Under the pieces are notes generated by a model. That model worked only from the letters and a program-made list of their open reading frames with translations, did not search any database and was not told the origin of the DNA. A stretch of 64,000 nt of DNA from Aristaeella lactis (lineage in GTDB: Bacteria; Bacillota; Clostridia; Christensenellales; Aristaeellaceae): assembly GCF_018118585.1 (NCBI RefSeq), contig NZ_CP069421.1, forward strand, positions 2,666,001 to 2,730,000. Direction: 5' to 3'. Numbering within the stretch: the stretch's first letter is position 1; each line of letters opens with the position of its first letter. This document shows positions 2 through 10,137 of the stretch, one piece after another. Made by a program: the position numbers and the translations under genes.

Positions 2-2020
2 ATCTATTGCAATAATCCCCGTTTCGCAGATACCAATTATATCTATTCGATCTATCTGGCAAGGGAATATCTGGATGATGATATTCTGCTTATGCATGGA
101 GATCTGGTAGTTGACAGCGAGATTCTGGAAAATATTCTGGCCAATAAAGGAAGCTGTATGGCCGTTAGTTCAACAGTTGCGCTTCCGGAAAAGGATTTCA
201 AGGCTGTTATAAAAAACGGTAAAATAACGAAAGTTGGTATTGAGTTTTATAATGACGCTGAGGCTGCTCAGCCTTTATACAAACTGGACAGAAAGGATTG
301 GCAGATTTGGCTGGATAAGATAATTGAATACTGTGAATCAGGAAATACATCCTGTTATGCTGAAAATGCCTTCAATGAGGTGTCTGAGAACTGCTGCATT
401 TATCCTTATGATTGCAAGGACATGCTCTGCGGTGAGGTGGATACAGCGGAAGATCTGGCAGTGATGAAAAATCGTCTGCAGGAAATTAAAAACCGCAGCG
501 TATATATGTGTTTCGCCACCGATATTATTCATGCGGGTCATATGAGCCTGATCAAAAAGGCTCGTAAATTGGGAAAGCTAACGGTAGGTATTCTTTCAGA
601 TGAGGCTATATCCCAATACAGGCGGGCTTCTGTTCTTTCAGCAGAGGATCGTAAAGAAATGATGAGCAATATTGTCGGTGTCAGTCGGGTTGTGGATCAG
701 GACACACTTTCATATAAGAAGAATCTTCTTAAGCTAAAACCAGACATTGTTGTGCACGGGGACGACTGGAAAACGGGATATCAGAAAGAAATCCGTGAGG
801 AAGTAATTGCCATTCTGTCTACCTATGGCGGAAAACTTGTTGAGTATCCTTATACACATGATGAAAAATATGAGTTCATCGATCGTAAAATTGAAAATAG
901 TCTTTATGCAAACCATCGTGTTTTGGAAGCATCGCCGAATTATGCAGAACTGGACGGATATATCCGCGGTAAAGAATTACATAAAATTATGCTGGTTCAT
1001 GGTGCTTCTCTGAATCGTTTTCCTCTGAAAGAATACTTTTATCAACTACCTCACAGGCTTAACACACAAATCGTCTACTTCAGCGATTTCAAACCCAATC
1101 CCGCTTACGAATCTGTGGTTAACGGTGTTCGGCTTTTTAAGGAATCAGGCTGTGACGGCATTATTGCTATTGGCGGCGGAAGCGCAATGGATGTTGCCAA
1201 ATGCATTAAACTGTTTGCTAACATGAAGGATGACGAGGATTTTCTGGACCAGAAAATTGTGCCCAATGAGATTCCGCTGATTGCCATTCCTACAACAGCT
1301 GGAACGGGTTCAGAGGCGACGAGATTTGCGGTTGTTTACCGGAAAGGAGAAAAACTTTCCATTACGGATTCAAGTTGTATTCCTGCTTTGACTTTATTTG
1401 ATGTATCTTTGCTTGATTCCCTGCCATTGTATCAGAGAAAGGCTACCATGATGGATGCGCTCTGTCATGCGATTGAAAGCAGCTGGTCTATAAACAGTAC
1501 AGAAGAAAGCAGTAAATATGCTCACTCCGCGATTGAACTTGTGATTAAGTATAAAGATGCTTATCTAAACAATGAAAAGCAAGGCAATCGCGGGATGATG
1601 GAGGCAGCTTATCTGGCGGGTAAAGCCATCAATATTTCCCAGACTACCAGTGCTCATGCCATGAGTTATAAACTTACCAGTCTTTTCGGATTAGCGCACG
1701 GACATGCTGTGGCTATTTGCCTTAGGAAGATTTTCCCTTATATGCTGAAGCATCTGGATAAAACAGTTGATCCACGAGGAAAAGGTTATCTCAGGGATGT
1801 TTTTCAGCAGATATCGGAATGCCTTGGATGTCGGAATCCCGAAGAAGGCGCTTTGTATTTGGAAAACATGATAAACGCGTTGGAGTTTGATATTCCAGAG
1901 CCTACTGAGGAACAGTACCGGATTCTGGCACATTCGGTAAATGTAATCAGACTGAAAAACAATCCTGTGGAGTTGTCTGTTGAAGATATTGATGAACTAT
2001 ATCATCAGATTCTTCGTTGA
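2..2020 (+). CDS. Three-domain phosphonate-type enzyme: nucleotidyltransferase, cytidylyltransferase, iron alcohol dehydrogenase (5'-truncated)
   Basis: The frame is open from base 2, so the true start lies upstream; 672 residues are visible. Residues ~1-165 look like a LicC/PntC-type nucleotidyltransferase (MHGDLVVDSEI, closing VDTAEDL). Residues ~165-290 are a second cytidylyltransferase fold with HAGH and VHGDDW, closely resembling the domain fused to many phosphoenolpyruvate mutases. Residues ~320-672 are an iron-dependent alcohol dehydrogenase (GGGSAMDVAK, TTAGTGSEATRFA, metal-site DALCHAIES and GLAHGHAV), the family that includes phosphonoacetaldehyde reductase. A likely role is reduction of phosphonoacetaldehyde to 2-hydroxyethylphosphonate and CTP activation of a phosphonate for transfer to a surface glycan; this is inferred. 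The PEP mutase catalytic domain itself is not in the window. The gene is AT-rich, unlike the region after 9.3 kb. Confidence 0.8.
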   Translation: MYCNNPRFADTNYIYSIYLAREYLDDDILLMHGDLVVDSEILENILANKGSCMAVSSTVALPEKDFKAVIKNGKITKVGIEFYNDAEAAQPLYKLDRKDWQIWLDKIIEYCESGNTSCYAENAFNEVSENCCIYPYDCKDMLCGEVDTAEDLAVMKNRLQEIKNRSVYMCFATDIIHAGHMSLIKKARKLGKLTVGILSDEAISQYRRASVLSAEDRKEMMSNIVGVSRVVDQDTLSYKKNLLKLKPDIVVHGDDWKTGYQKEIREEVIAILSTYGGKLVEYPYTHDEKYEFIDRKIENSLYANHRVLEASPNYAELDGYIRGKELHKIMLVHGASLNRFPLKEYFYQLPHRLNTQIVYFSDFKPNPAYESVVNGVRLFKESGCDGIIAIGGGSAMDVAKCIKLFANMKDDEDFLDQKIVPNEIPLIAIPTTAGTGSEATRFAVVYRKGEKLSITDSSCIPALTLFDVSLLDSLPLYQRKATMMDALCHAIESSWSINSTEESSKYAHSAIELVIKYKDAYLNNEKQGNRGMMEAAYLAGKAINISQTTSAHAMSYKLTSLFGLAHGHAVAICLRKIFPYMLKHLDKTVDPRGKGYLRDVFQQISECLGCRNPEEGALYLENMINALEFDIPEPTEEQYRILAHSVNVIRLKNNPVELSVEDIDELYHQILR

Positions 2021-2077: not shown

Positions 2078-2971
2078 ATGGCTTTATCCAGAATACAGTT
2101 TGATATATTAGAAACCATGGCGAGAGAACGTAAACCATTCTCGTCTGCAGAGATGATAAGCACATCACATTCAGAAAAAGAGATTGCAGACGCTTTACGG
2201 GAATTAGATGAAAAAGGTTACGTGAGCAATGGCGCTATCACAAACAGTGGTATTTCAGCTTTGGAACCGTACAAGGTAAAGCGGGCAATTTTTCTGGCAG
2301 CTGGCTTTGGCACCAGAATGATTCCCATAACTTTTAATACACCGAAACCGTTGGTCAGAGTTCACGGAATTCGTATCATAGATCGTCTGATTGATGCTTG
2401 TCTTGCTGCGGATATTCAGGATATATATATTGTCAGAGGTTATCTTGGAGAGACTTTTGATCAGCTGCTTTATAAGTATCCTATGATTAAGTTTATTGAG
2501 AATCCTATGTATAATGAGGCAAACAACATCAGTTCCGCTCTTGTAGCCAGATATCTCATTCCCAATGCTTATGTGTTGGAGGCGGATATGTTACTTTCGA
2601 ATCCGGCGGTCATTAAAAAGTATCATTACACCTCTAATTATCTTGGGATCAAAAAGCCTTTTTCAGACGATTGGGTTGTTCGTGCAAAGAATGGAATTAT
2701 TTACGAAGAAACTGTAAGCGCTGAAGGCGATGATGTTTATCAGATGGTGGGTTTTTCTTATTGGGATGAGAAAGACGGATACAGGCTGATACAGGATATT
2801 CAGGATGTTTTTCAATCTCCCGGAGGCAAGGATCGATATTGGGAACAGGTGCCATTAGTATTCAGAAAGGATCATTATCAGGTCGAAGTTCGAGAATGTA
2901 AAGAGGAAGATATTGTTGAGATTGATACCTTTAATGAACTGAAAACAATCGACAAGACATATGATGTATGA
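2078..2971 (+). CDS. Winged-helix / LicC-like CTP:phospho- or phosphonate-group cytidylyltransferase
   Basis: The 297-residue protein starts at an ATG preceded by AGGAGAT. Residues 1-65 resemble a MarR-type winged helix; residues 70-297 are a sugar-nucleotidyltransferase fold with AIFLAAGFGTRMIP and TPKPLVRV (nucleotide binding) and a metal-binding EADMLLSNP. This arrangement is typical of LicC phosphocholine cytidylyltransferases and of PntC 2-aminoethylphosphonate cytidylyltransferase. Next to the phosphonate-type fusion upstream, a phosphonate substrate is more likely than choline, and no choline kinase (LicA) is visible. It lies 57 bp after the fusion gene and ahead of the importer, probably in one operon. 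Substrate assignment is inference. Confidence 0.75.
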   Translation: MALSRIQFDILETMARERKPFSSAEMISTSHSEKEIADALRELDEKGYVSNGAITNSGISALEPYKVKRAIFLAAGFGTRMIPITFNTPKPLVRVHGIRIIDRLIDACLAADIQDIYIVRGYLGETFDQLLYKYPMIKFIENPMYNEANNISSALVARYLIPNAYVLEADMLLSNPAVIKKYHYTSNYLGIKKPFSDDWVVRAKNGIIYEETVSAEGDDVYQMVGFSYWDEKDGYRLIQDIQDVFQSPGGKDRYWEQVPLVFRKDHYQVEVRECKEEDIVEIDTFNELKTIDKTYDV

Positions 2972-3061
2972 TTTCCGGTATTGTCAGAAAGAATTGAATA
3001 TGTTTTCTGTGCGGTAAGGATGGAAAGCATATGCAATATAAAACATTCGGAGGGAAAAACT

Positions 3062-4096
3062 ATGAAAAAAGTTGTCACTATCTTGCTTGCACTTCTGACA
3101 GCACTCCTATTGATGTCCTGTTCTATGGCTGAAACAGCGGTTTCCGGTATAAAGTTTGAGCCCCCTGTCCAAGCAGACAATCTGGACACAAGCAGCAACA
3201 AAGTCGTTATTTATTCCGGCGCGGAGGAATACCGGAATGAATATTTCATGAAACGACTTACTGAAACATTTCCTGATTATGAAATCGTAATTGAGTATAT
3301 GCCCACCGGCAACCTGGCAGCAAAGTTGGCTGCGGAAGGCACCGATACGGATATGGATATTTTCTACGATCTGGATTTCAGCTATGCCGGATTGGTTAAA
3401 CAGTATCTTGCAGATGTTTCTGCCTATGATCAGTCCGTCTATGTGGATGATTGTAAAGTTGAGGACGCTCACTATCTGGCAGCAACCCGCAACGGAGGTG
3501 CTGTAATTGTCAATCCGAATGTGTTGGCAGAAAAGGGAATTGAAGAACCGACTTCATATGAGGATCTTCTGAAACCGGAGTTTAAAGGTCTTATTTCCAT
3601 GCCAAGTCCCAAATCTTCCGGAACCGGATACATGTTTGTTAAAAACCTTGTCAATGCCTGGGGTGAAGAAAAAGCCTTTGAATATTTCGACAATCTCAAT
3701 GAGAATATTCTTCAGTATACCTCTTCTGGTTCCGGCCCGGTGAATGCCCTTGTCCAGGGAGAAGCAGCCGTAGGACTCGGAATGACAGCTCAGGCTGTAA
3801 CCGCCATTAATGACGGGGCTAATTTGAAGATACTGTTCTTCGAAGAAGGTTCACCTTATTCCTTATATGGATATGCCATTCCTGAAGGAAAACAGAACCG
3901 GAAAGCAGTTGTGGATGTGTTTGATTTCTTCTATTCCACGTTGGTGCTTGAAGATAAGGAGCTGTATTATCCTGAACAAGTCTTTGTAAATCAAGTGAAT
4001 AATATAGCGAATTATCCGAAAAATATACCTTATGGTGATATGAATAACAATACCACGGAAGAAAAGAGCCGCTTGCTGGACAATTGGGAATACTAA
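3062..4096 (+). CDS. ABC importer substrate-binding lipoprotein, 2-aminoethylphosphonate / ferric family
   Basis: The ATG at 3062 is chosen because GGAGGG sits just upstream and a signal peptide follows at once (MKKVVTILLALL, lipobox-like LLMSCS). The 344-residue protein begins its mature fold with VVIYSGAEEYRNEYF, typical of family-1 solute-binding proteins that carry Fe(III), thiamine or 2-aminoethylphosphonate. Later segments (PSPKSSGTGYMFV, VQGEAAVGLGMTAQA) fit the PhnS/FutA group. The ligand cannot be read directly; the phosphonate enzymes upstream favour 2-aminoethylphosphonate or a related phosphonate. The ATPase and permease follow directly. A perfect 13-bp hairpin after the stop probably keeps this transcript more abundant than the downstream genes. 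Confidence 0.8.
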   Translation: MKKVVTILLALLTALLLMSCSMAETAVSGIKFEPPVQADNLDTSSNKVVIYSGAEEYRNEYFMKRLTETFPDYEIVIEYMPTGNLAAKLAAEGTDTDMDIFYDLDFSYAGLVKQYLADVSAYDQSVYVDDCKVEDAHYLAATRNGGAVIVNPNVLAEKGIEEPTSYEDLLKPEFKGLISMPSPKSSGTGYMFVKNLVNAWGEEKAFEYFDNLNENILQYTSSGSGPVNALVQGEAAVGLGMTAQAVTAINDGANLKILFFEEGSPYSLYGYAIPEGKQNRKAVVDVFDFFYSTLVLEDKELYYPEQVFVNQVNNIANYPKNIPYGDMNNNTTEEKSRLLDNWEY

Positions 4097-4182: not shown

Positions 4183-4977
4183 ATGGATAAACTTGAAATC
4201 AGGAATCTGTCAAAGACTTTTGATGGAACTGGTGTCCTGCATAATGTCAGCTTTACTGTGAAAGATGGAGAGTTTTTGTCTATTCTTGGTCCATCTGGCT
4301 GTGGTAAGACCACAATTCTGAGAATACTTATTGGATTGGAATCGGCAGATCAGGGCATTATACTGAAGGACGGTATCGATATAACCAATACTCCCTCAGC
4401 TTACCGAAAAATGGGTATCGTGTTTCAGAATTATGCATTATTCGAAAACATGACCGTGCTGGGAAATGTAGAATATGCCCTCCGAAAAAGTCCGTCAACA
4501 AAAGCTGAATATAACAATAAAGAGAAAGCAACTGCAAAAGCAAAAGAAATGCTTGAACTTGTAGGTTTAGCAGAACATCTTGAAAAGAAACCAAGACAGC
4601 TTTCGGGCGGGCAACAGCAAAGAGTGGCTATTGCACGGACACTCGCTTTAAACCCGGATGTAATTCTTTTTGATGAACCGATGTCTGCACTGGATGTAGA
4701 TACCAGATTAGCCCTTCGCGGAGAGCTGAAAGATCTGCAGAAGAAATTTGGCAACACAATGATTTATATTACCCATGACCAGGAAGAGGCGTTTGCAATG
4801 TCTGACCGCATTATGGTCATGGATGCCGGTTATATTCATCAATTGGATACACCTCATAACATTATTGATTATCCGGCAGATGAATATGTCAAAAAGTTTG
4901 TAATTAAGAATATAAATACCAAGATTGATTCTTTGATTCAGTTTGCCAGGAAAAATGGAGGAGGACAAAATGCATAA
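4183..4977 (+). CDS. ABC importer ATP-binding protein
   Basis: The 264-residue nucleotide-binding subunit has Walker A GPSGCGKTT (~36-44), Q-loop VFQNYALF, signature LSGGQQQR, Walker B VILFDEPMSALD and H-loop ITHDQEE. The family matches PhnT/PotA/FbpC-type importers, though the C-terminal extension after the core is too short for a full TOBE regulatory domain. The start has GGGAGCAGG upstream. Its last codons overlap the permease start by eight bases, indicating translational coupling. It would energise uptake of the ligand bound by the preceding lipoprotein. Confidence 0.9.
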   Translation: MDKLEIRNLSKTFDGTGVLHNVSFTVKDGEFLSILGPSGCGKTTILRILIGLESADQGIILKDGIDITNTPSAYRKMGIVFQNYALFENMTVLGNVEYALRKSPSTKAEYNNKEKATAKAKEMLELVGLAEHLEKKPRQLSGGQQQRVAIARTLALNPDVILFDEPMSALDVDTRLALRGELKDLQKKFGNTMIYITHDQEEAFAMSDRIMVMDAGYIHQLDTPHNIIDYPADEYVKKFVIKNINTKIDSLIQFARKNGGGQNA

Positions 4978-6547
4978 AAAATGGACTCCTTCTACAGCTT
5001 TAAAGATTCTTCTTTGTATTTTTTGGCTTTTTGCAATTATATTGCCATTGATCAGGATGCTTTCCAATATGGCATCTGTTGATGTATGGGCTGTAATGAC
5101 AACACGCAAGTTCGCTAAGGCATTGCGACAGTCTTTGATTGCATCCTCAACATCAACACTGATTTCCATTGCTCTTGCTGGATTGCTGGCATTTTGTGTT
5201 GCAAGGACTAATGTTCGACATAAAACATTTCTTAATACATTAATTACTGTACCAATGCTTATCCCATCTATTTCTCATGGTATGGGATTAATTATTATTC
5301 TGGGGACAAATGGGTGGCTTTCCAGATTATTAGGGATTCAAGGCGGTATTTACGGATTTTGGGGTATAGTATTAGGATCTGTGATGTATTCATTTCCTGT
5401 TGCGTACCTTATGTTATATGATATTTTACGATATGAAGATGGTACACCATATGAAGCGGCAATTGTTATGGGCCTTTCTCAGGTTGATAAATTCAAGGCC
5501 ATCACATGGCCTTATCTAAGGAAACCGCTCATTTCTGTTGTGTTTGCAACATTTACGATGATCATAACCGACTATGGTGTACCACTGATGGTTGGTGGTA
5601 AATATATGACACTTCCTGTAATGATGTATCAGGATGTAATTGGCATGCTGGATTTCGGCAAGGGAAGTGTGATTGGCATGATCCTCCTCATACCGGCTTT
5701 GATTGCTTGCATCCTTGATATGATGAACAGAGATAAAGGAAACAGCGCATTTGTTGGGAAACCGTATGGAATCAAATCAAGTCAGATCAGGGATAATATT
5801 GCACGGGCAATTTGTTCTGTGGTTATTGTTCTTATGTTCCTTCCGATTGGTTCTTTCATTGTGTTGAGTTTTGTTGAAAAGTATCCTATCAGTATGTTTT
5901 TTTCGATGGACAATATGTATCAGGCCATTCATATGGGCGCTTTGAATTACCTGAGGAATTCATTGATCATTGCTTTAGTTGTTTCTGTGCTGGGAACAAT
6001 GCTGGCTGTTTTTAATGGTTATATGACAGCAAGAAAGAAGACACGCCTTTCCTATATCTTACATCTGATATCTATAACATCTCTTGCCATTCCAGGTATT
6101 GTTCTTGGCCTTTCTTATGTAATGTTTTTTAAAGGAAGCTTTATATATGGTACTATGGCTATGCTTTTCCTTGTTAATTCCATGCACTTTTTTTCATCTC
6201 CCTATTTGATGGCTTATAATACTTTTGGAAAGATTAATGAGAATCTAGAGGATATAGGTTCTACTTTAGGAATCAGCACATGGAGTATTATAAAGGATGT
6301 ATTATTACCTCAGGCACGAGGCACCATCCTGGAAATGATGAGTTATTTCTTTGTAAACTGTATGATGACCATATCGGCGGTTTCTTTTCTGTCTACTGTT
6401 GCCAATAAACCGCTTGCGTTGATGATTACACAGTTTGAGGGCCAAATGCAGCTGGAATGTGCGGCATTTGTCTCATTGGTTATTCTTGCAGTAAATGTGA
6501 TCATGAAATATGTTGTGTACAGAGTGAAAAAGGTTGTTGTGGATTAA
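4970..6547 (+). CDS. Fused two-module ABC importer permease
   Basis: ATG 4970 is preferred over the upstream 4943 codon because GGAGGAGG lies 5-6 bases before it. The 525-residue protein has about twelve hydrophobic helices in two halves. Each half carries an EAA-type cytoplasmic loop that contacts the ATPase: EAAIVMGLSQVDKF near residue 162 and EDIGSTLGISTWSI near residue 430. Fused permeases of this size are usual for Fe(III) (AfuB/FbpB) and 2-aminoethylphosphonate importers, where one chain supplies the whole membrane channel. It completes the importer begun at 3062. Confidence 0.85.
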   Translation: MHKKWTPSTALKILLCIFWLFAIILPLIRMLSNMASVDVWAVMTTRKFAKALRQSLIASSTSTLISIALAGLLAFCVARTNVRHKTFLNTLITVPMLIPSISHGMGLIIILGTNGWLSRLLGIQGGIYGFWGIVLGSVMYSFPVAYLMLYDILRYEDGTPYEAAIVMGLSQVDKFKAITWPYLRKPLISVVFATFTMIITDYGVPLMVGGKYMTLPVMMYQDVIGMLDFGKGSVIGMILLIPALIACILDMMNRDKGNSAFVGKPYGIKSSQIRDNIARAICSVVIVLMFLPIGSFIVLSFVEKYPISMFFSMDNMYQAIHMGALNYLRNSLIIALVVSVLGTMLAVFNGYMTARKKTRLSYILHLISITSLAIPGIVLGLSYVMFFKGSFIYGTMAMLFLVNSMHFFSSPYLMAYNTFGKINENLEDIGSTLGISTWSIIKDVLLPQARGTILEMMSYFFVNCMMTISAVSFLSTVANKPLALMITQFEGQMQLECAAFVSLVILAVNVIMKYVVYRVKKVVVD

Positions 6548-6587
6548 ACAATACGTGATATTTCAGGCTTATGAATGGAGGCTTTTT

Positions 6588-6779
6588 ATGTTCGATTATC
6601 TGATTGTCGGTGCTGGCCTTTATGGAGCTACAGTTGCCCGTGAATTAACTGATGCGGGGAATTCCGTCCTGGTGATTGATAAACGCCCGCAGATTGCTAA
6701 TTTTATGGAATTGATAGCTGTTGATGATAGTTATGCACATTATCCGGGATACGAAGAATATACCGGCGGAAGACAATAA
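6588..6779 (+). pseudogene. glf: Truncated UDP-galactopyranose mutase (glf 5' fragment)
   Basis: An ATG with GGAGG upstream opens a 63-residue frame whose first 37 residues match the complete Glf at 9010 at 33 positions, including the dinucleotide-binding GAGLYGATVARELTDAG. After residue 37 the sequence departs abruptly (ANFMELIAVDD...) and stops at 6779, so no catalytic domain remains. Most nucleotide differences from the full copy are synonymous, so this is not a very recent duplication. It sits between the importer and a glycosyltransferase and looks like a recombination or insertion scar. Short translation is possible, but function as a mutase is not. Confidence 0.8.
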
Positions 6780-9009: not shown

Positions 9010-10137
9010 ATGTACAATTATCTGATCGTTGGCGCTGGTCTTTATGGAGCCACTGTTGCCCGGGAATTAACAGATGCTGGGAATTCTGTCCTTGTGATCG
9101 ACAAGCGTTCTCATATTGCGGGAAACGTATATACCGAGAAGACGGAAGGTATTAATGTTCATATATACGGTGCACATATCTTCCATACAAACAATAAGCA
9201 GGTCTGGGATTATGTGAACCGGTTTTCCGTTTTCAACCGCTTTACCAACAGTCCTGTGGCGAATTACCACGGAGAACTGTACAGCCTGCCCTTCAATATG
9301 TATACCTTCAATAAAATGTGGGGCGTGGTGACGCCGGAGGAAGCTGCCGCGAAGATCGAAGAGCAGCGAAAGGAAGCAGGGATCACGGAACCGAAGAACC
9401 TGGAGGAGCAGGCTATCTCCCTGGTAGGAACAGATATCTATGAAAAGCTGATCAAGGGTTATACCCAGAAACAATGGGGGCGGCCGTGCACAGAGCTGCC
9501 GGCATTTATTATCAAACGGCTGCCGGTTCGCCTGACCTTCGATAACAACTACTTTAACGCGCTTTACCAGGGCATTCCGGTGGGCGGTTATACGAAGATG
9601 GTTGAAAATATGCTGAAGGGGATTGAAGTTCAGCTGAACGTTGACTATCTGGCAGACAAGGCAAAGTGGGACGGTGTGGCTGAAAAGGTGATCTATACCG
9701 GGCCTATTGATGCTTATTTCAAATACTGCCTCGGCAACCTGGAATACCGTTCTGTGCGGTTTGAAACGGAAGTGCTGGATAAGCCGAATTTCCAGGGAAA
9801 TGCCGCGGTGAACTATACAGACGCGGAGACACCCTGGACCCGAATTATTGAACATAAATGGTTTGAGTTCGGGAAAGACGAAAACGGCAATGACCTGCCG
9901 AAAACTGTGATCAGCAGGGAGTACAGCTCTGAGTGGAAACTGGGAGATGAACCGTATTACCCGGTGAATGACGAGAAGAACGGCAATCTGTATCAGGAAT
10001 ATAAAAAGCTGGCGGATAAAGAAACGAATGTGGTATTTGGCGGCCGGTTGGGCGAATACAAGTATTACGATATGGATCAGGTGATTGCGGCGGCGCTTGA
10101 CAAAACCCAGATTCTTTTACATTCATTTTTTTGTTAA
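9010..10137 (+). CDS. glf: UDP-galactopyranose mutase
   Basis: The 375-residue FAD enzyme interconverts UDP-galactopyranose and UDP-galactofuranose, supplying Galf for surface glycans. It shows GAGLYGATVARELTDAG, NVHIYGAHIFHTNN, the family segment EKLIKGYTQKQWG and the FGGRLGEYKYYDMDQVI tail. A GGAGGGT site precedes the ATG. The first ~250 bases are AT-rich with codon use like the upstream genes; the rest is GC-rich like the downstream locus. The last residues (KTQILLHSFFC) do not look like a normal Glf end, and the DNA turns AT-rich again there, hinting at a second junction. Catalytic regions look intact. Confidence 0.93.
   Translation: MYNYLIVGAGLYGATVARELTDAGNSVLVIDKRSHIAGNVYTEKTEGINVHIYGAHIFHTNNKQVWDYVNRFSVFNRFTNSPVANYHGELYSLPFNMYTFNKMWGVVTPEEAAAKIEEQRKEAGITEPKNLEEQAISLVGTDIYEKLIKGYTQKQWGRPCTELPAFIIKRLPVRLTFDNNYFNALYQGIPVGGYTKMVENMLKGIEVQLNVDYLADKAKWDGVAEKVIYTGPIDAYFKYCLGNLEYRSVRFETEVLDKPNFQGNAAVNYTDAETPWTRIIEHKWFEFGKDENGNDLPKTVISREYSSEWKLGDEPYYPVNDEKNGNLYQEYKKLADKETNVVFGGRLGEYKYYDMDQVIAAALDKTQILLHSFFC

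Follow-up and report, generated by a model that had tools for sequence, protein, structure and literature searches.

At the left edge of the window, by which we mean the whole 64,000-nucleotide stretch that was analysed (G000:C1:2666001-2730000; G and L numbers label genomes and loci, and G000 is the genome to which the window belongs), a frame of 672 amino acids with an open 5' end runs from position 2 to 2020. The full gene lies in the contig at L003:15774-18020. It can begin at a TTG codon, giving 748 residues, or at an ATG two codons (six bases) later and 221 bases before the window, giving 746 residues and agreeing with the start of most relatives. In the 746-residue numbering, residue r starts at window position 3r-223. 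The chain joins a LicC/PntC-type nucleotidyltransferase (NT), a cytidylyltransferase (CT) and an iron alcohol dehydrogenase (ADH). Further abbreviations are PepM for PEP mutase, Ppd for phosphonopyruvate decarboxylase, HEP for 2-hydroxyethylphosphonate and AEP for 2-aminoethylphosphonate. The fusion and the genes that follow it are laid out as below.

Upstream of the window, from L003:15780, plus strand: residues 1-74 of NT, from the contig sequence
2-481, plus strand: NT domain, PF12804/PF00483, residues 75-234 of 746 (Pfam; PDB matches)
482-895, plus strand: CT domain, PF01467, residues 235-372, boundary approximate (Pfam; best PDB match 5x3d)
530-541 and 752-769, plus strand: CT motifs HAGH and VHGDDW, respectively
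896-2020, plus strand: ADH domain, PF00465 and PF25137, residues 373-746, stop at 2018-2020; predicted phosphonoacetaldehyde reductase
2078-2971, plus strand: separate LicC/PntC-type NT with an N-terminal extension, helix-turn-helix-like by eye (Pfam; 1jyk, 2.5e-22)
2981-4096, plus strand: ABC solute-binding protein; best NCBIfam model TIGR03261 phnS2 (AEP type), 172.3 bits, under the cut-off of 392.75
4183-4977, plus strand: ABC transporter ATPase, named by eye from motifs
4943-6547, plus strand: ABC transporter permease, named by eye

That three domains share one polypeptide, as the original prediction held, is borne out by the full 746-residue chain with its upstream part. Each domain has Pfam matches over cut-off (748-residue numbering): NT to PF12804 (36.3 bits) and PF00483 (28.1) over residues 4-124, CT to PF01467 (54.7 bits, 250-344), and ADH to PF00465 (126.4 bits, 391-543) and PF25137 (82.5 bits, 557-746); a DUF6564 match of 23.1 bits stays under cut-off. 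A CT of the kind associated with PEP mutase was expected to stand here without that partner, and indeed Pfam finds no mutase domain (PF13714) in the chain, with PepM being encoded by separate genes. The presence of two nucleotidyltransferase folds in one chain proves less unusual than had been thought, since Rice 2019 counts 42 PepM proteins with both (PMC6697681). A structural model of all 746 residues, built on 53 rows, has a mean pLDDT of 88.2 and a pTM of 0.55, so that it does not fix the placement of the domains or any channel between them. The 50 Foldseek matches listed for this model are of ADH type, and the NT and CT folds thus rest on sequence matches.

The region upstream of the fusion, where pepM and ppd were to be sought, contains both over cut-off. 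Ppd is the next gene upstream (TIGR03297, 462 bits; cut-off 312.5), and a CT-PepM of 430 residues lies about 7 kb off (TIGR02320, 402.5 bits; cut-off 319.55). They belong to a run of genes in one direction that comprises two glycosyltransferases, an acyltransferase, an ORF without Pfam match, a flippase-type protein, LicD and CT-PepM, followed by a LicD-like protein, a metallophosphoesterase, a second LicD-like protein, an epimerase-type protein, a DUF6564 protein, a saccharopine-dehydrogenase-like protein and Ppd. One LicD gene is confirmed by Pfam. The first of the two LicD-like genes was the query of a phmmer search, and its best NCBIfam model is cholinephosphotransferase Mf1 (71.6 bits, under the cut-off of 225); the second is a gene that matches this query.

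Elsewhere in the same genome, a second phosphonate chain, an NT-CT-PepM of 676 residues (L004:6572-8602, G000:C1), is located upstream of the fusion, at a distance of about 37 kb. No ADH or Ppd occurs in the 18 kb read around it, and its neighbors encode very large secreted-looking proteins that appear papain-like and Ig-like by eye. A second Ppd (L085:9851-10978, G000:C1 near 941,900) is over cut-off with 428.9 bits, and the 19 kb read there contain nothing that matches PepM. Within the window, a short ORF at 6534-6779 repeats the N-terminal part of a UDP-galactopyranose-mutase-like gene (by eye) that is intact at 9010-10137, and between the two lies a gene for a 717-residue membrane-type protein without Pfam match.

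A search of the genome contigs for relatives returned 361 stretches encoding one. The best 80 of the 361, ranked by likeness to the fusion, were kept and, with four loci of the window's own genome, make up the 84 loci examined, among which L001 duplicates part of L003 and L002 part of L004. NT-CT-ADH occupies one open frame of 744-797 residues at 16 of the 84 loci (L003 and L005-L019). The other 15 copies are 53-65% identical to the fusion of the window, and a fused frame kept at this identity is neither chance nor an assembly artefact. The same 84 loci also hold 62 NT-CT-PepM, one NT-NT-CT-PepM, 14 CT-PepM and four NT-CT; once the L001/L002 repeats are removed, 62 distinct NT-CT-PepM (the NT-NT form included) and 13 CT-PepM are left. 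At L027 and L048, NT-CT and ADH are adjacent but separate genes. All 16 fusions keep the NT motif residues (G9, G11, R13, K23, D108 and D221), the HxGH motif and HGD.W core of CT, and the ADH residues GGGS 465-468, D559, H563, H626 and H640. We take these to be, for NT, the nucleotidyltransferase motif with its metal aspartates and, for ADH, a nucleotide motif (GGGS) and a metal set (D/H/H/H).

The fusion is rare despite the limits of sampling. Full-length matches (1-745 or more) occur in two of 300 genomes of an evenly drawn family sample (G000 and G195) and in two of 391 of an evenly drawn class sample (G000 and G377), counts in which only two or three candidates were scored per genome and fusions may be missed. 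The stretch from fusion to Ppd in G195, a genome of the same genus, is 99.1% identical in DNA over 5238 bases to that of the window's genome (L097 against L096), and the score of its NT-CT-PepM differs slightly from that of our copy; a recent transfer or a close strain are possible explanations. Open frames of 1044-1129 residues in the family sample had raised the suspicion of a four-domain NT-CT-PepM-ADH fusion, which is ruled out by a real stop and one or two codons between the genes at L103, L108, L116, L118 and L124.

The ADH domain has the features of an iron alcohol dehydrogenase (PF00465/PF25137, GGGS and D/H/H/H). Its first two Foldseek matches are methanol dehydrogenase 8zwd and sulfoacetaldehyde reductase 6jko (TMt 0.83 and 0.85). 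Sulfoacetaldehyde is the sulfonate analogue of phosphonoacetaldehyde. The model named for the phosphonate enzyme, TIGR03405 (Phn_Fe-ADH / PsrA), gives the fused ADH 141.6 bits, far under the cut-off of 423.7, and the general iron-ADH models for ErcA and lactaldehyde reductase score slightly above it. Scores on TIGR03405 are similarly low for three ADH genes from PepM loci (144.5, 145.9 and 129.2 bits), which indicates that this model does not cover the present group of ADHs.

Kinship was read from a tree of 96 rows, with 16 fused ADHs, 59 separate ones (two of 61 separate ORFs, with fewer than 250 matched residues, were left out) and 21 paralogs. The paralogs come from 36 loci, excluding ORFs with fewer than 230 matched residues, an E-value over 1e-5, or at least 250 bits, the last being of fused or locus type. 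Fused ADHs and those of PepM/Ppd loci form one group against 20 of the 21 iron-ADH paralogs (support 100/100), and a paralog from the window's own genome, L094, lies inside this group on a long branch. This kinship supports the original likening of the domain to phosphonoacetaldehyde reductase, its predicted activity. The counter-finding named with that prediction, an upstream region lacking any phosphonate enzyme and an ADH of unrelated kin, did not materialize: Ppd and PepM are present, and ADH groups with the ADHs of PepM/Ppd loci.

The NT-CT-ADH arrangement may have arisen on more than one occasion. On the ADH tree the fused label needs five changes, four of them forced by well-supported branches, and a single clade of fused ADHs is rejected (p-AU 0.00019, 75 rows) by an AU test that presumes a group named before the tree is seen, the ADH tree having been seen first. 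On the NT-CT tree five changes are needed, one of them forced, and a single clade is not rejected (p-AU 0.185). Such a change need not be a fusion; it can also be a fission or an exchange of the ADH. The trees are compatible with several separate joining events and also with a single one, after which the ADH was replaced or the fusion split.

The best PDB match of the CT domain is the CyTase domain of Fom1 (5x3d, 4.6e-37, 59 of 121 residues identical), which supports the original label of a HAGH/VHGDDW cytidylyltransferase of the PEP-mutase-associated kind. The product of the Fom1 domain is CMP-HEP according to Rice 2019 (PMC6697681). The NT-CT family agrees with Fom1 at Asp328 (80 of 82 rows) and Gln335 (81 of 82), in A1 numbering. 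The CT of CT-PepM chains departs from Fom1 at these positions, with Asp in nine of 13 rows at the former and Glu as the commonest residue (7 of 13) at the latter. An STT motif present in two HldE-like rows is missing from the fused CT. We considered this loss as a sign of a dead domain and dropped it as non-discriminating, for the CT rows among those listed lack STT too, in every architecture.

The NT domain has the PntC/LicC fold by its Pfam matches and by the G-x-G-x-R...P-K motif residues invariant in all 16 fusions, and it matches LicC (1jyk, 4.7e-9) and PntC-AEPT (6pd1, 2.8e-5) in the PDB. In Tde-PntC, Glu104 and Glu196 lie near the amine of AEP (PMC6697681). His106 of the fusion aligns to Glu104, and histidine occupies this position in 83 of 83 NT-CT rows; the second amine-contact position is retained as Glu195 in the fusion and is Glu in 82 of the 83 rows, with one gap. 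Separate NT genes have Glu at both positions in six of six alignable copies and in the copy at 2078-2971 of the window. Of the seven separate NT rows in this alignment, one is truncated and shows gaps. The row for LicC is displaced by one column at the first amine position and was not used there; the correspondence of His106 to Glu104 is taken from a different alignment, that of the fusion with Tde-PntC. Of the LicC/PntC-like label, then, the fold stands, and the AEP specificity of PntC probably does not, as His106 at the Glu104 position argues against AEP as the NT substrate. We propose that, most likely, CT serves HEP and NT is a second CMP transferase whose predicted substrate is not AEP.

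The separate NT at 2078-2971 is, judging from its residues, a probable partner gene for an amine-bearing substrate. Six separate NT genes stand beside an AEP transaminase, five of them in fusion loci. This PntC-like Glu/Glu gene neighbors one for a binding protein resembling phnS2, and no AEP transaminase of the genome passes the cut-off, which suggests that the genes at 2078-4096 would import and activate external AEP.

At the level of whole genomes, Ppd is over cut-off in 15 of the 16 that carry the fusion (the exception is G004) and so is PepM (the exception is G003, with pieces only); none of 14 control genomes has either over cut-off. The PepM frames of the other fusion genomes measure 432-441 residues, the size of CT-PepM, apart from the pieces in G003. 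AEP transaminase is over cut-off in 12 of the 16, the others being G000, G001, G003 and G013. Of the two exits from phosphonoacetaldehyde that were searched for, the window's own genome thus shows only the reductase. Ppd was not found within the stretch read at the 15 other fusion loci. At four of them (L014, L016, L018 and L019) the NT-CT-ADH gene is on its own, next to genes for large proteins that look secreted; in G010 (L014) and G015 (L019) PepM, Ppd and AEP transaminase are grouped at another place in the genome. At L007 (8092-9897) a 602-residue fusion of PF12804 and a class I/II aminotransferase (PF00155), reminiscent of FrbH-type fusions, lies just upstream of NT-CT-ADH.

NT-CT is seldom found with the transaminase and is often, not always, found with an ADH of the PepM-locus type. 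Among the best 80 of 361 loci, a list ordered by likeness to the fusion that may favor loci with ADH, 56 of 62 NT-CT-PepM ORFs have an ADH gene no more than 6 kb away, and two of the 62 have an AEP transaminase at such a distance; the transaminase is near seven of 13 CT-PepM and five of 16 NT-CT-ADH. In the evenly drawn family sample, with at most three candidates scored per genome, an ADH match lies within 6 kb for 25 of the 73 NT-CT matches. We also read 20 NT-CT-PepM loci (L169-L188) chosen as having no ADH nearby, from 20 genomes of the same family, 17 of them of the same genus. Locus-type ADH was found at none of the 20 (one weak match had 90 bits) and AEP transaminase in none of their genomes at E 1e-60; Ppd is over cut-off in 18 of the 20 genomes. 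For those of the same genus, an ADH of the L094 type is a candidate for the reductase. The idea that NT-CT is always accompanied by an ADH gene was dropped on these figures (25 of 73, and none of the 20 read from the remainder).

Together, we consider the fusion to be probably the HEP arm of a surface-phosphonate pathway contained in one chain. Separate genes would supply its substrate, with CT-PepM making phosphonopyruvate and Ppd making phosphonoacetaldehyde. The C-terminal ADH domain would then reduce phosphonoacetaldehyde to HEP with NAD(P)H, a step proposed from ADH kinship and from gene context, the latter being mixed evidence. The Fom1-like CT domain, or NT, or both, would convert HEP and CTP to CMP-HEP, as the Fom1 match of CT suggests. 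LicD-type transferases of the same gene run could pass the HEP group to an exported glycan, a step suggested by the neighboring genes. The substrates, the order of the reactions, the acceptor glycan and any channelling by the fusion are what we infer from this picture; its product is probably a carbon-phosphorus compound activated for attachment to surface sugars. A bolder extension is conceivable, which we offer tentatively and think rather doubtful. In Clostridia of the gut and rumen, an HEP reductase and a pair of CTP transferases would have been welded together repeatedly and independently into a portable gene, whose product would carry phosphonoacetaldehyde through to CMP-HEP and pass this on without setting it free, so that less flux enters the AEP branch. 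NT would in that case have a new specificity, for HEP or for some other phosphonate lacking an amine, and would act alongside the Fom1-like CT.

Two transferase domains could instead serve two phosphonates, CT activating HEP and NT activating AEP, as PntC does, or phosphocholine, to yield CMP-HEP and a CMP-amine. Membership of NT in PF12804 with PntC and LicC, the retained Glu195 and the transaminase in most fusion genomes fit such a division, but the histidine at the Glu104 position throughout the NT-CT rows, where separate NTs have Glu/Glu, does not, and the window's own genome has no transaminase over cut-off yet does have a separate Glu/Glu NT; on balance we find it unlikely. We also give a low probability to one transferase domain being catalytically idle, a dimerisation or docking module that tethers pathway enzymes. 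Such a role would account for CT occurring on both PepM and ADH chains in the same genomes, and the departures of CT-PepM-type CT from Fom1 at Asp328 and Gln335 are in keeping with it. The nucleotide-binding motifs of NT and CT are nevertheless invariant in every fusion, and the agreement of the NT-CT family with Fom1 at both residues is unexpected for an idle domain.

A reading in which ADH acts on some other aldehyde, and the fusion belongs to glycan or alcohol metabolism that has nothing to do with phosphonates, seems to us improbable. It would sit well with the slightly higher scores of the ErcA and lactaldehyde reductase models, with the position of the fused gene apart from PepM and Ppd in several genomes, and with the absence of such an ADH near most NT-CT matches of the family. 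It is opposed by the occurrence of Ppd and PepM in nearly all fusion genomes, by close ADH homologs near most NT-CT-PepM of the best 80 of 361 loci, and by the tree that parts fused and locus ADHs from nearly all other iron ADHs.

The attachment of phosphonates other than AEP to bacterial surfaces is a largely open field. Because the fusion ties a presumed HEP-making enzyme to presumed CMP-activating domains, a single gene is enough to express the HEP branch and study it in isolation. NT-CT-ADH may also serve as a marker for possible HEP-decorated glycans that are invisible to surveys of PepM fusions. In the open-licence literature, searched by title and abstract start, with subscription papers and preprints outside its scope, we found no description of this architecture.

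The closest inventory, that of Rice 2019, describes the tailoring that follows PepM as enigmatic and characterises enzymes that prefer AEP (PMC6697681). It reports PF12804 in 33.0% and PF01467 in 23.6% of its PepM fusions, and both, joined to Ppm, in 42 proteins (PMC6697681). These 42 share their NT-CT unit with the 62 distinct NT-CT-PepM ORFs found here among the best 80 of 361 loci and our own. The third domain of those triple fusions is the mutase, whereas here it is ADH; the word "dehydrogenase" is absent from the main text of that paper (PMC6697681). As the present fusion holds no mutase, an inventory based on Ppm/PepM cannot list it. Fom1 of Streptomyces wedmorensis, from the fosfomycin pathway, shares the CyTase domain, and its cytidylylation of HEP is the role we propose for CT, but Fom1 joins this domain to PEP mutase, whereas here CT is joined to NT and ADH in a chain without mutase. 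In Tde1415 of Treponema denticola (PntC-AEPT, 6pd1) NT is likewise fused to the enzyme that links its substrate with phosphonoacetaldehyde; there the partner is a transaminase and the substrate AEP, whereas the present chain has ADH as the partner, contains CT in addition and carries His at the position of Glu104. FrbH, the cytidylyltransferase-decarboxylase of the FR-900098 pathway, likewise couples CMP activation to a second phosphonate enzyme, with a substrate and a partner that differ from those of the fusion described here (PMC8976061).
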